Assembly (NCBI GenBank): GCA_944392965.1
Contig: CALXYM010000008.1
Span: 1-64,000 of the forward strand
Source: an uncultured Spirochaetaceae bacterium
Lineage (GTDB): Bacteria > Spirochaetota > Spirochaetia > Sphaerochaetales > Sphaerochaetaceae
Direction: 5' to 3'
DNA: 64,000 bases
Positions 22,044 to 27,840 of the stretch are shown piece by piece. The notes beneath the pieces are model-generated. The model had not been told where the DNA came from. It saw only the letters and a list, made by a program, of their open reading frames with translations, and searched no databases. The translations under genes were made by a program, and so were the position numbers. Each line of letters opens with the position of its first letter. The first letter of the stretch is position 1.

Positions 22044-22060
22044 TTGGCACGTATATTGCT
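22044..22060 (+). promoter_or_regulatory. Sigma-54 promoter of small RNA A
   Basis: TTGGCACGTATATTGCT is a full match to the -24/-12 consensus (TTGGCACG-N4-TTGCT). GG (22046-22047) and GC (22058-22059) are separated by exactly ten bases. Transcription should start near 22071. Confidence 0.85.
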
Positions 22061-22070
22061 ATGAAATAAT

Positions 22071-22149
22071 TACAACAGAGCAAAACAGTTTTTTTCAACC
22101 TCCTTTTTTAGCATTTCGGCACCTTTTTAAATGAGGTGCCCTTTTTTTT
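22071..22149 (+). ncRNA. Small RNA A, sigma-54-driven, with anti-Shine-Dalgarno motif
   Basis: A predicted transcript of about 79 nt begins 12 bases after the -12 GC and ends at an intrinsic terminator (GGCACCT, AGGTGCC, then eight T at 22142-22149). The 5' part carries ACAGAGCAA and a T-rich stretch, followed by CAACCTCCTT (22096-22105). ACCTCCTT is the anti-Shine-Dalgarno sequence of 16S rRNA. No open reading frame of any length lies inside. It shares its 5' domain with RNA B just downstream. The likely mode of action is base pairing to ribosome binding sites; targets are not known. No named RNA family recognised. Confidence 0.7.
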
Positions 22150-22170
22150 GAAACGCAAAAAATTCTCACT

Positions 22171-22185
22171 GTGAAATTTTTTCAC
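22171..22185. promoter_or_regulatory. Inverted repeat between the two small RNAs
   Basis: GTGAAATTTTTTCAC: six-base arms around TTT, about 45 bases upstream of the -24 box of RNA B. It is a candidate binding site for the activator that sigma-54 needs, although closer than the usual 80-150 bases. Confidence 0.35.
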
Positions 22186-22230
22186 ATCGTAAAACCCCTT
22201 TATTACAGGATAATTCCTTAAAAAGCATAC

Positions 22231-22247
22231 TTGGCATGGGATTTGCA
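22231..22247 (+). promoter_or_regulatory. Sigma-54 promoter of small RNA B
   Basis: TTGGCATGGGATTTGCA has GG (22233-22234) and GC (22245-22246) ten bases apart, and matches the consensus at all conserved positions. Transcription should start near 22258. Confidence 0.85.
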
Positions 22248-22257
22248 TAATAAGTAA

Positions 22258-22369
22258 TACAGAGCAACAGTTTTTTCACCTCCTTGTAAATATGTGTGAA
22301 AAACAAATAAGAATGGTAGCATCGCCGACACTCTCTCCCATCCCAACAGTCGGCGATGCTGTTTTTTTT
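22258..22369 (+). ncRNA. Small RNA B, sigma-54-driven, anti-Shine-Dalgarno motif in a hairpin loop
   Basis: The predicted transcript is about 112 nt. It starts with ACAGAGCAACAG like RNA A. TTTTTCAC (22272-22279) can pair with GTGAAAAA (22296-22303), leaving a 16-base loop (22280-22295) that begins CTCCTT. TCACCTCCTT (22276-22285) equals the 3' tail of 16S rRNA. The 3' end is a 12-bp perfect stem AGCATCGCCGAC/GTCGGCGATGCT (22318-22329, 22349-22360) with a pyrimidine-rich 19-base loop, then eight T (22362-22369). An open frame from 22292 runs through it into rlmE but has no ribosome site and crosses the terminator, so it is not a gene. Confidence 0.72.
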
Positions 22370-25857: not shown

Positions 25858-26910
25858 ATGGATTTTTCAAGACCTGATAACGCACGTCTAATCAACCGCC
25901 TGAAAACCCTGTCAGCGATAAGGGAGAAGGAGAACATGACAAGAGCCGAGCTCTCAAGAGAACTCTTGATAAACAAGGTCTCCATCTCAGAAATCGTTGA
26001 TGCCCTCATAAAGGAGGGGCTTGTAAAGGAAAGCGGAAAACTCGCAATCGACTCAGGCCGACCTGCGACGCTGTTAGATATCGATGTGAGAGCGGGTAAA
26101 GTGATCGGACTTGCGATCAGAGAAAAAGGCTGCCTGATAGCCGCAAGCGACCTGAAAGGGAAAATCCTCCGTCTTGAGCGTTTTCCAAGGGGAAGAGATG
26201 AAGAGGAATTAAAAGAAAACCTCCATGCATCACTTGAAAGGATACTGAGAAACGAGAGCGTCAGCATATATGGTGCGGTTATCGTTACTGAGGGAAAAGA
26301 GGATCTGAAAAGCATCCTCCCTTTCCCAAGCATCACGCTCCCTCCGATAGAAGCACAGGTAATAGCAGAAAGAAGAAGATGTGATGATGAGCTTGAGAAG
26401 ATGCTCTTCATAATGGCTGGAGAACATATAAGTGCGTACTATGAAGGATTACGCCTTGATGAGTTCGGCCATATCAGGATAGCTCATGGAGAGCCCTGTT
26501 ACTGCGGAAAGAACGGATGTTTAGAGACATTCTTCAGTGGAAAAGCATTTAAAGCGGAGGCAGAGAAAAGATACGGGAAGCCCATGGGAACAAGAGAGAT
26601 CCTCATCCATAGCGAGATAATAGAGGAAAGGCTAAGGCCACTTGCCGTCTCAATAGCCCTGGCAACGGAAACTCTTGGAGCAGAGAGCACCATGCTTATA
26701 GGAGAATACTCCGAACTCAGGGATGAAGATTACGCCGCATTAAACAGCATGGTACTTTCCCTTCTTCCCGGATGGAAAAAAAATTACACGGTATTCAAAA
26801 GCATAGCAGGAGAATCAGGAATGATAGAAGGAGCCTGCCATGCGGCACTTGATCACTTCTTCTACAAAAGGGAACTGCTTGAGAAACTGAAGGAAATAGA
26901 GAAGCTTTAG
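25858..26910 (+). CDS. ROK-family (NagC/XylR-type) transcriptional regulator
   Basis: The 350-residue protein has an N-terminal winged helix (DNARLINRLKTLSAIREKENMTRAELSRELLINKVSISEIVDALIKEGLVKE, about 5-58) and a ROK domain. The ROK zinc site is intact: FGHIRIAHGEPCYCGKNGCLETFFSG (about 205-230). The glucokinase-like ATP motif is degenerate, as expected for a regulator rather than a kinase. It probably represses sugar or amino-sugar genes; no obvious target operon adjoins it. The frame is open to 25822, but ATG 25858 fits the family and the TATTCT box. It overlaps the convergent lipoprotein gene by four bases. Confidence 0.87.
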   Translation: MDFSRPDNARLINRLKTLSAIREKENMTRAELSRELLINKVSISEIVDALIKEGLVKESGKLAIDSGRPATLLDIDVRAGKVIGLAIREKGCLIAASDLKGKILRLERFPRGRDEEELKENLHASLERILRNESVSIYGAVIVTEGKEDLKSILPFPSITLPPIEAQVIAERRRCDDELEKMLFIMAGEHISAYYEGLRLDEFGHIRIAHGEPCYCGKNGCLETFFSGKAFKAEAEKRYGKPMGTREILIHSEIIEERLRPLAVSIALATETLGAESTMLIGEYSELRDEDYAALNSMVLSLLPGWKKNYTVFKSIAGESGMIEGACHAALDHFFYKRELLEKLKEIEKL

Positions 26911-27647
26911 ATCCTGTTATCTTTCGAACGGAATACAACAAGGCAGATGAGCAGTACAAGATAGATAAGAAGAAGATTGTCCCAGCCGAGGATTACCACG
27001 CTGACAAGCATCGGTATAGAGACGAAAAGCAATGTCAGAATCACCGCAACGGGTATGGGAAGCGGACGCTGGAACTTATTTCTTATCACGCTTGAAAGAG
27101 TGAAGATGAATACCACCACGATAAGCTCCACCATCACAAAAAGAATCTCATCGCTTATCTCACTGTCAAGAACAGAACGCTGAGAAAAGGAGTCAGAGGT
27201 CTCCTCCTGAGATGGGATAACGACCGGCACATCCTCTTCAACAGCAGGAGGAACATCCTCGGAAGGAATGGTCACGCCCTCCTCTGTTTCCGTACCAGAA
27301 GGCTCCGTAATCATCTCGCTTATCTCCTCAACGATATTCACCGGGCGTGAAATGTCTTCCACGACCTCAGGCTCTATCTTCTCTTCCACGTCCACGGGAT
27401 TAACGGCATCGGAAACGGGCATATCCTCCGTGACAGCATCTTCCACCACTGAAAGAGGAGTCTCTTCAACACCGATAGGCTCCTCCTCTACAAGAGGAGG
27501 ATTATAAACTTCAACCGTCTCTACAATCCTATACTCATTCCCCGTATCCTCCTCGAGGATGACATCCTCCGGCGGAACAATCTCTTCCGTCGTAGAACAT
27601 GAGATGAATATGAGAATTAAAAATAAAACGGTTAAAAACTTTTTCAT
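26907..27647 (-). CDS. Acidic lipoprotein with C-terminal membrane helices
   Basis: The 246-residue protein begins with the lipoprotein signal MKKFLTVLFLILIFISCSTTEE (spirochaete-style lipobox, Cys17). A long extracytoplasmic stretch (about 18-165) of Glu, Val, Pro and Asp follows, with loosely repeated E-P/V-E-E units and low complexity. Then come three hydrophobic segments (about 170-240). A lipid anchor followed by membrane helices is an unusual order. No family recognised. No Shine-Dalgarno site is seen; TAAAAG lies about seven bases before the ATG. Confidence 0.7.
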   Translation of the reverse strand: MKKFLTVLFLILIFISCSTTEEIVPPEDVILEEDTGNEYRIVETVEVYNPPLVEEEPIGVEETPLSVVEDAVTEDMPVSDAVNPVDVEEKIEPEVVEDISRPVNIVEEISEMITEPSGTETEEGVTIPSEDVPPAVEEDVPVVIPSQEETSDSFSQRSVLDSEISDEILFVMVELIVVVFIFTLSSVIRNKFQRPLPIPVAVILTLLFVSIPMLVSVVILGWDNLLLIYLVLLICLVVFRSKDNRI

Positions 27648-27704: not shown

Positions 27705-27800
27705 AAAAAAACCGCTGATCTCCAGCGGCAACCTCCTTGTCCCGAAAAGAAACGGGGTGTCCGAGGTCACATGCCAGAACAATCAGTGCAACCCCTGAAC
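27705..27800 (-). ncRNA. Small RNA C, sigma-70-driven, complementary to RNAs A and B
   Basis: On the minus strand TTGCAT (27835-27830), 17 bases and GATAAT (27812-27807) make a promoter. Transcription near 27800 would give about 96 nt, ending in CCGCTG-GAGAT-CAGCGG followed by seven T (27711-27705). The RNA can fold as GGC and GACCTC pairing with GAGGTT and GCC around an inner CCCG/CGGG hairpin. Its 3' side carries ACAAGGAGGTTG (complement of 27729-27740), the perfect complement of ten bases in RNA A (CAACCTCCTT) and ten in RNA B (ACCTCCTTGT). It also has several GGA motifs, so a CsrA-binding role is an alternative. It lacks the conserved SRP loop, so it is not 4.5S RNA. Confidence 0.6.
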
Positions 27801-27840
27801 ACTAGAATTATCGCACGAAAGAGAATGTAATGCAAATTTT

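Follow-up and report, generated by a model that had tools for sequence, protein, structure and literature searches.

RNA C of Sphaerochaetaceae, a possible sponge of two anti-Shine-Dalgarno sibling RNAs with sigma54-type promoters

Small RNAs that act as sponges of other small RNAs (sRNAs) have been described in several bacteria: CrfA of Caulobacter crescentus is a sponge of the SisA-D (alphaR8) sRNAs (PMC12559287), RosA of Bacillus subtilis is a sponge of RoxS and FsrA (PMC8216469), and QrrX of Vibrio cholerae is a sponge of Qrr1-4 (PMC9732341). For the Sphaerochaetaceae, which are common gut spirochaetes, our literature searches found no small-RNA regulation, and nothing relevant was found on sigma54 or small RNAs in Sphaerochaeta. 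Here, we describe three predicted sRNAs, designated A, B and C, in a 64-kb stretch of DNA that was analysed as a whole (the window), and we consider whether RNA C may serve as a sponge of its two partners.

RNA C: gene, fold and distribution

On the minus strand of the window, the first-pass annotation had proposed a unit composed of the promoter TTGCAT-N17-GATAAT, an RNA C of about 96 nt bearing ACAAGGAGGTTG, and a terminator with a U7 tract; all these elements were confirmed in the sequence (27834-27705). The sigma70-type promoter (27806..27834, minus strand) comprises TTGCAT at 27834-27829 and, after 17 bp, GATAAT at 27811-27806, and in an alignment of 21 copies, the TTG of the -35 and the TG..A.AAT of the -10 showed a conservation of at least 90%. 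The transcript (27705..27800, minus strand), predicted from the promoter and the terminator as well as from same-locus homologues in relatives, would start near 27800. Its intrinsic terminator (27705..27728, minus strand) has the stem CCGCTGG(AGA)TCAGCGG and then seven T, the last of them at 27705, and the terminator arms covary among relatives (CCGCTGG/CCAGCGG, CCACTGG/CCAGTGG, CCACTAGA/TCTAGTGG). Both elements that mark an independent transcript in the sponge class, a promoter and a terminator of its own, thus appear to be present and conserved for RNA C. A search against Rfam at the gathering score, covering the window and seven loci of relatives, gave no match to any family, SRP RNA, tmRNA and 6S included, in agreement with the earlier statement that RNA C bears neither an SRP RNA nor a tmRNA signature; a relaxed threshold gave chance-level matches only, the best of them (E 0.52) outside RNA C. 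Judged from its sequence, RNA C is a genuine, undescribed and unnamed sRNA family without an Rfam match. A coding function was rejected on inspection by eye, as the reading frames after AAGGAGG differ among species.

Read from 5′ to 3′, RNA C consists of a hairpin H1, a second hairpin, a Shine-Dalgarno (SD)-like core and the terminator, and its predicted fold was better than those of 197 of 200 shuffled sequences. In H1 (27763..27793, minus strand), a variable stem closes a conserved 15-nt segment, CUGAUUGUUCUGGCA. The stem differs in sequence from species to species with its pairing kept: the mean number of contiguous pairs was 5.2 with the own partner vs. 1.4 when the partners were taken from different species, which none of 5000 permutations reproduced, kinship inflating this contrast. 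The H1 loop, (C/A)UGAUNG(A/U)(U/C)C..GCA, is conserved with the exception of the G013 clade, G018 and G025, and is variable in G027. When the first 20 RNA C sequences were submitted to RNAalifold, the terminator alone was recovered because MAFFT leaves the variable stems unaligned.

The SD-like core, ACAAGGAGGTTG / ACAAGGAGGUUG (27729..27740, minus strand), is situated between hairpins and is complementary to both A and B. Adjoining the terminator, the near-invariant AAGGAGGUU(U)GCC is the least variable part of the RNA, whereas the 5′ stems diverge. In the predicted folds the core is partly paired (unpaired probability 0.00-0.23). It may also partly resemble the complement of a 16S rRNA segment.

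The genus (Candidatus Ornithospirochaeta-type, Sphaerochaetaceae) is represented here by 48 genomes, and RNA C was found at the same locus in 46 of them. The DNA search revealed it in 19 of 60 relatives, all from this genus, and a broader pattern combined with reading of the syntenic locus added, in the remaining members, a variant whose core (AAGGAGGUUUGCC) is longer by one U; some copies of this variant carry the compensating terminator changes CCACTGG/CCAGTGG. The idea that RNA C is missing from half of the genus was thereby ruled out, since those genomes have the UUUG form at the same locus. RNA C was not found in G070, and in G011 it has apparently been lost. At the G011 locus (L198), a terminator-like remnant, GCCGCTGG..CCAGCGG-T7, which by eye is like that of RNA C, immediately precedes the lipoprotein gene and itself follows an inserted 5′-nucleotidase-like gene.

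Outside the genus, the strict family pattern detected RNA C in 0 of 91 genomes. A looser reading of the loci revealed homologues with AGGAGGUUGCC and a terminator in the cultured species Bullifex porci (L118) and in two further spirochaetes (L060, L085); all three are near htpG, with A/B upstream of rlmE in each. These homologues, with their changed base before AGGAGG, exclude a confinement of RNA C to the genus, and RNA C is therefore older than the genus. For G002, L131/L256 and L020 (contig C71), one genome bin contains a second, diverged copy of the entire A-B-rlmE-htpG-C locus, which could come from a second strain.

RNAs A and B and their complementarity to RNA C

RNAs A and B are short units with -24/-12 promoters and terminators, with a rhomboid gene on one side and rlmE on the other. 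RNA A (about 79 nt; 22071..22149, plus strand) is preceded by the sigma54-type promoter TGGCACGTATATTGC (22045..22059, plus strand), which is conserved in relatives, and is composed of AGAGCAAAACAG-U-run-CAACCUCCUU followed by a terminator hairpin. RNA B (about 112 nt; 22258..22369, plus strand), with the sigma54-type promoter TGGCATGGGATTTGC (22232..22246, plus strand), reads AGAGCAACAG-U-run-CACCUCCUUGU and ends in a terminator with the C-rich loop CUCUCUCCCAUCCCA. Common to both is AGAGCAA(AA)CAG-U-run-CCUCCUU. A GTDB scan of 84,980 genomes found this signature in 79 contig stretches with spirochaetal titles, many of them Sphaerochaetaceae or Spirochaetales; the one exception, labelled Bacteroidetes, has no promoter-like sequence before the signature. 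These features place A and B in a sibling group of anti-SD RNAs with putative sigma54 promoters that extends across the family and is absent from Rfam. The Qrr RNAs are sigma54-dependent; Rfam gave no relation of RNA C to Qrr. The C-rich loop in the RNA B terminator (CTCTCTCCCATCCCA, about 22330-22350) is kept across the family and may be a second pairing site. Between A and B lies a palindrome, TGTGAAATTTTTTCACA (22170-22186), possibly a regulator site for B, and akin TGTGAA..TTCACA sequences occur in some relatives.

The ten-base perfect matches of RNA C with A and B, pointed out in the first-pass annotation, proved exact: they fall on CAACCTCCTT at 22096-22105 (A) and ACCTCCTTGT at 22278-22287 (B). 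It should be kept in mind that every SD-like sequence can be expected to pair with every anti-SD. The 10-mers of RNA C have 11 matches on the other strand in the 64-kb window, close to the random expectation by an arithmetic estimate, so that the ten-base matches prove nothing alone and the weight rests on conservation. The count of CAACCTCCTT in the genome is 18 vs. 10 for the reversed control.

When accessibility was considered, the best site for the interaction of C with A was the ACAAGGAGGTTG core site in nearly all genomes; in each of the six genomes tested, 60 shuffled A sequences all failed to reach it. The predicted energies lie between -8 and -12 kcal/mol in most genomes. The energies of full-length duplexes calculated without accessibility were uninformative, shuffled sequences scoring equally well in the three genomes compared. 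At least 8 contiguous C-A pairs, usually 10 or 11, can form in 40 of the 41 genomes having both RNAs. Complementarity to the seed of another sRNA, conserved among species as expected of a sponge, was thus found for C vs. A, the A segment being the presumed seed. In the window, as in a few of its close relatives, B pairs with the other side of the C core (ACAAGGAGGU/ACCUCCUUGU). Two near-identical intergenic elements with AATCAACCTCCTTTAAGGACAAATTGTC, complementary to C, were noticed in G060 (L271, L282).

Furthermore, the states of the C core and of its complement in A were tabulated for the 41 genomes with both RNAs (G009, G027 and G034 included). Of these, 14 have C-UUG together with A-CAACC, another 23 have C-UUUG together with A-CAAACC, and none combines C-UUUG with A-CAACC. 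In the other four, C-UUG occurs with A-CAAACC (G032, G066, G004) or with A-CAATCC (G028), leaving 7-9 pairs. This two-state table supersedes the plain co-occurrence of C with the CAACC type of A. On a tree of RlmE, HtpG and a ROK protein, one or two changes fall on the C state and about four on the A state; with so few UUG/UUUG changes, the matching of states is statistically non-independent, and the independent-pairs comparison, resting on one or two changes, had no power. The agreement between the C and A states in these sequences is suggestive and does not amount to a statistical proof.

A sponge role and the competing explanations

The pairing of C with A is well supported at the sequence level; the direction of the effect and its function are what we infer. 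The reading that we favour, quite possible though somewhat short of probable, is that RNA C is a sponge of the sigma54-dependent anti-SD siblings. It would be an autonomous small RNA with a housekeeping promoter in Sphaerochaetaceae, whose SD-mimicking core, situated between the upstream hairpin and the terminator, would base-pair with the CCUCCUU of the siblings. The main partner would be A, joined by B in the close relatives of the window. Presumably, A and B block the SD sites of mRNAs while sigma54 is active, and C would sequester or destabilise them, thereby setting a threshold and shortening their action. A Pfam search for Hfq gave no hit in any of 40 genomes, including that of the window, with the control genomes positive, and the C-A/B pairing would therefore have to operate without Hfq. 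The initial proposal of a sponge mimicking an SD site is supported in part: the conservation of all three RNAs and the extended pairing with A speak for a separate RNA whose SD-like segment is the complement of A/B segments; the sponge role itself is plausible.

The main rival, less probable but serious, is a role of C independent of A/B: C would be a trans-acting RNA using its core and H1 loop for another partner, be it a protein, an mRNA or the 16S rRNA 3′ end, and its complementarity to A/B would be a by-product or of secondary importance, given that an SD always fits an anti-SD. RNA A is present in 41 of the 46 genomes bearing C, and the remaining five (G013, G022, G005, G031, G060) have no detectable A/B. 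In these five the A/B pattern was found nowhere in the genome; the region upstream of rlmE in G013, G022 and G005 contains neither a sigma54-type box nor CCTCCTT, and no other CAACCTCCTT site in G013 and G022 is sRNA-like. The C core and terminator are intact in all five, so that the conservation of the core probably has reasons beyond pairing with A/B; this is the strongest evidence against such pairing as the whole explanation. According to the first-pass annotation, the idea would fall if C occurred in genomes lacking A and B with its complementary segment unconserved: C does occur in five such genomes, but the segment is fully conserved. These genomes provide a natural test of C acting alone. 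Moreover, the conserved H1 loop has no consistent complement in A/B, and the core is unchanged where A changes (G028, G004, G066, G032). What an incidental complementarity leaves unaccounted for is the match beyond the SD (UUG/CAA, UUUG/CAAA), since chance alone does not predict it, inserted base included; the H1 loop, for its part, is also lost in the A/B-less clade, as if the function had shifted. In a related and rather improbable scheme, C would be a regulatory RNA that carries an SD and has a conserved loop of its own for sensing or binding. Without need of A/B, it would act on the ribosome or on different partners, and sigma54-induced A and B would serve as its switch, in a three-RNA module of lineages without detectable Hfq.

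The direction of the interaction might also be the reverse, sigma54-induced A and B titrating C or triggering its decay, with C as the effector. The persistence of C without A/B would fit, and the conserved loop of C could be a target-binding site, but in the family A/B have at least as wide a distribution as C, A is present without C in G011, and A and B have a typical anti-SD seed, B even a second C-rich loop; we judge this reversal improbable. Still less can be said for a very unlikely reading by which C belongs to the downstream lipoprotein gene as its 5′ leader, be it an attenuator or a riboswitch: a small codirectional lipoprotein gene does follow shortly after C in most genomes, but the distance to the next gene is variable, and that gene encodes, by lineage, a lipoprotein, an antitoxin-like protein, an RpiB-like protein or HtpG. 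The fixed downstream gene expected of a leader or riboswitch was not found for C, and this variability argues for a stand-alone RNA. Besides, by eye, the lipoprotein gene has a promoter-like sequence near its ATG and no SD. In the window this gene (26907-27647, minus strand) is fast-evolving and possibly leaderless, an SD being absent in the relatives checked. Finally, a decoy for CsrA/RsmA with ACAAGGAGG as the CsrA site, to which the first pass came near in proposing GGA motifs that might bind CsrA, seems highly improbable: ACAAGGAGG resembles the CsrA consensus, and GGGAC/AAGGAGG supplies two GGA, but these are the only two in this part of C, one of them lies within the 3′ arm of a hairpin, and the UUUG/CAAA match would be left unexplained.

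Comparison with described sponge RNAs

Returning to the sponge role of RNA C, CrfA is its counterpart in being a stand-alone RNA with a purine-rich segment complementary to an anti-SD 10-mer conserved among sibling sRNAs (PMC12559287). In contrast, CrfA pairing is Hfq-dependent and starvation-induced (PMC12559287), whereas for C no Hfq was found, its promoter is of the housekeeping type and its siblings have sigma54 promoters. QrrX, like C, is directed at the conserved pairing region of sibling sRNAs, but it is Hfq-bound, and the sRNAs Qrr1-4 are homologous to one another and belong to a quorum-sensing circuit (PMC9732341).

RosA is likewise a stand-alone sRNA with a sigmaA-type promoter, its single-stranded G-rich regions pair with C-rich regions of two sRNAs, and it has been studied where no RNA hub protein is known (PMC8216469). 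It differs in its size of about 229 nt and in having three G-rich regions (PMC8216469), as compared with about 96 nt and one core in C. With Hfq undetected in 40 genomes, RNA C appears to resemble the Bacillus RosA case more than CrfA or QrrX. If our reading is true, the conserved trio of two sigma54-driven anti-SD siblings and one SD mimic would represent an Hfq-free sponge circuit, comparable to the sponges of Caulobacter, Bacillus and Vibrio.
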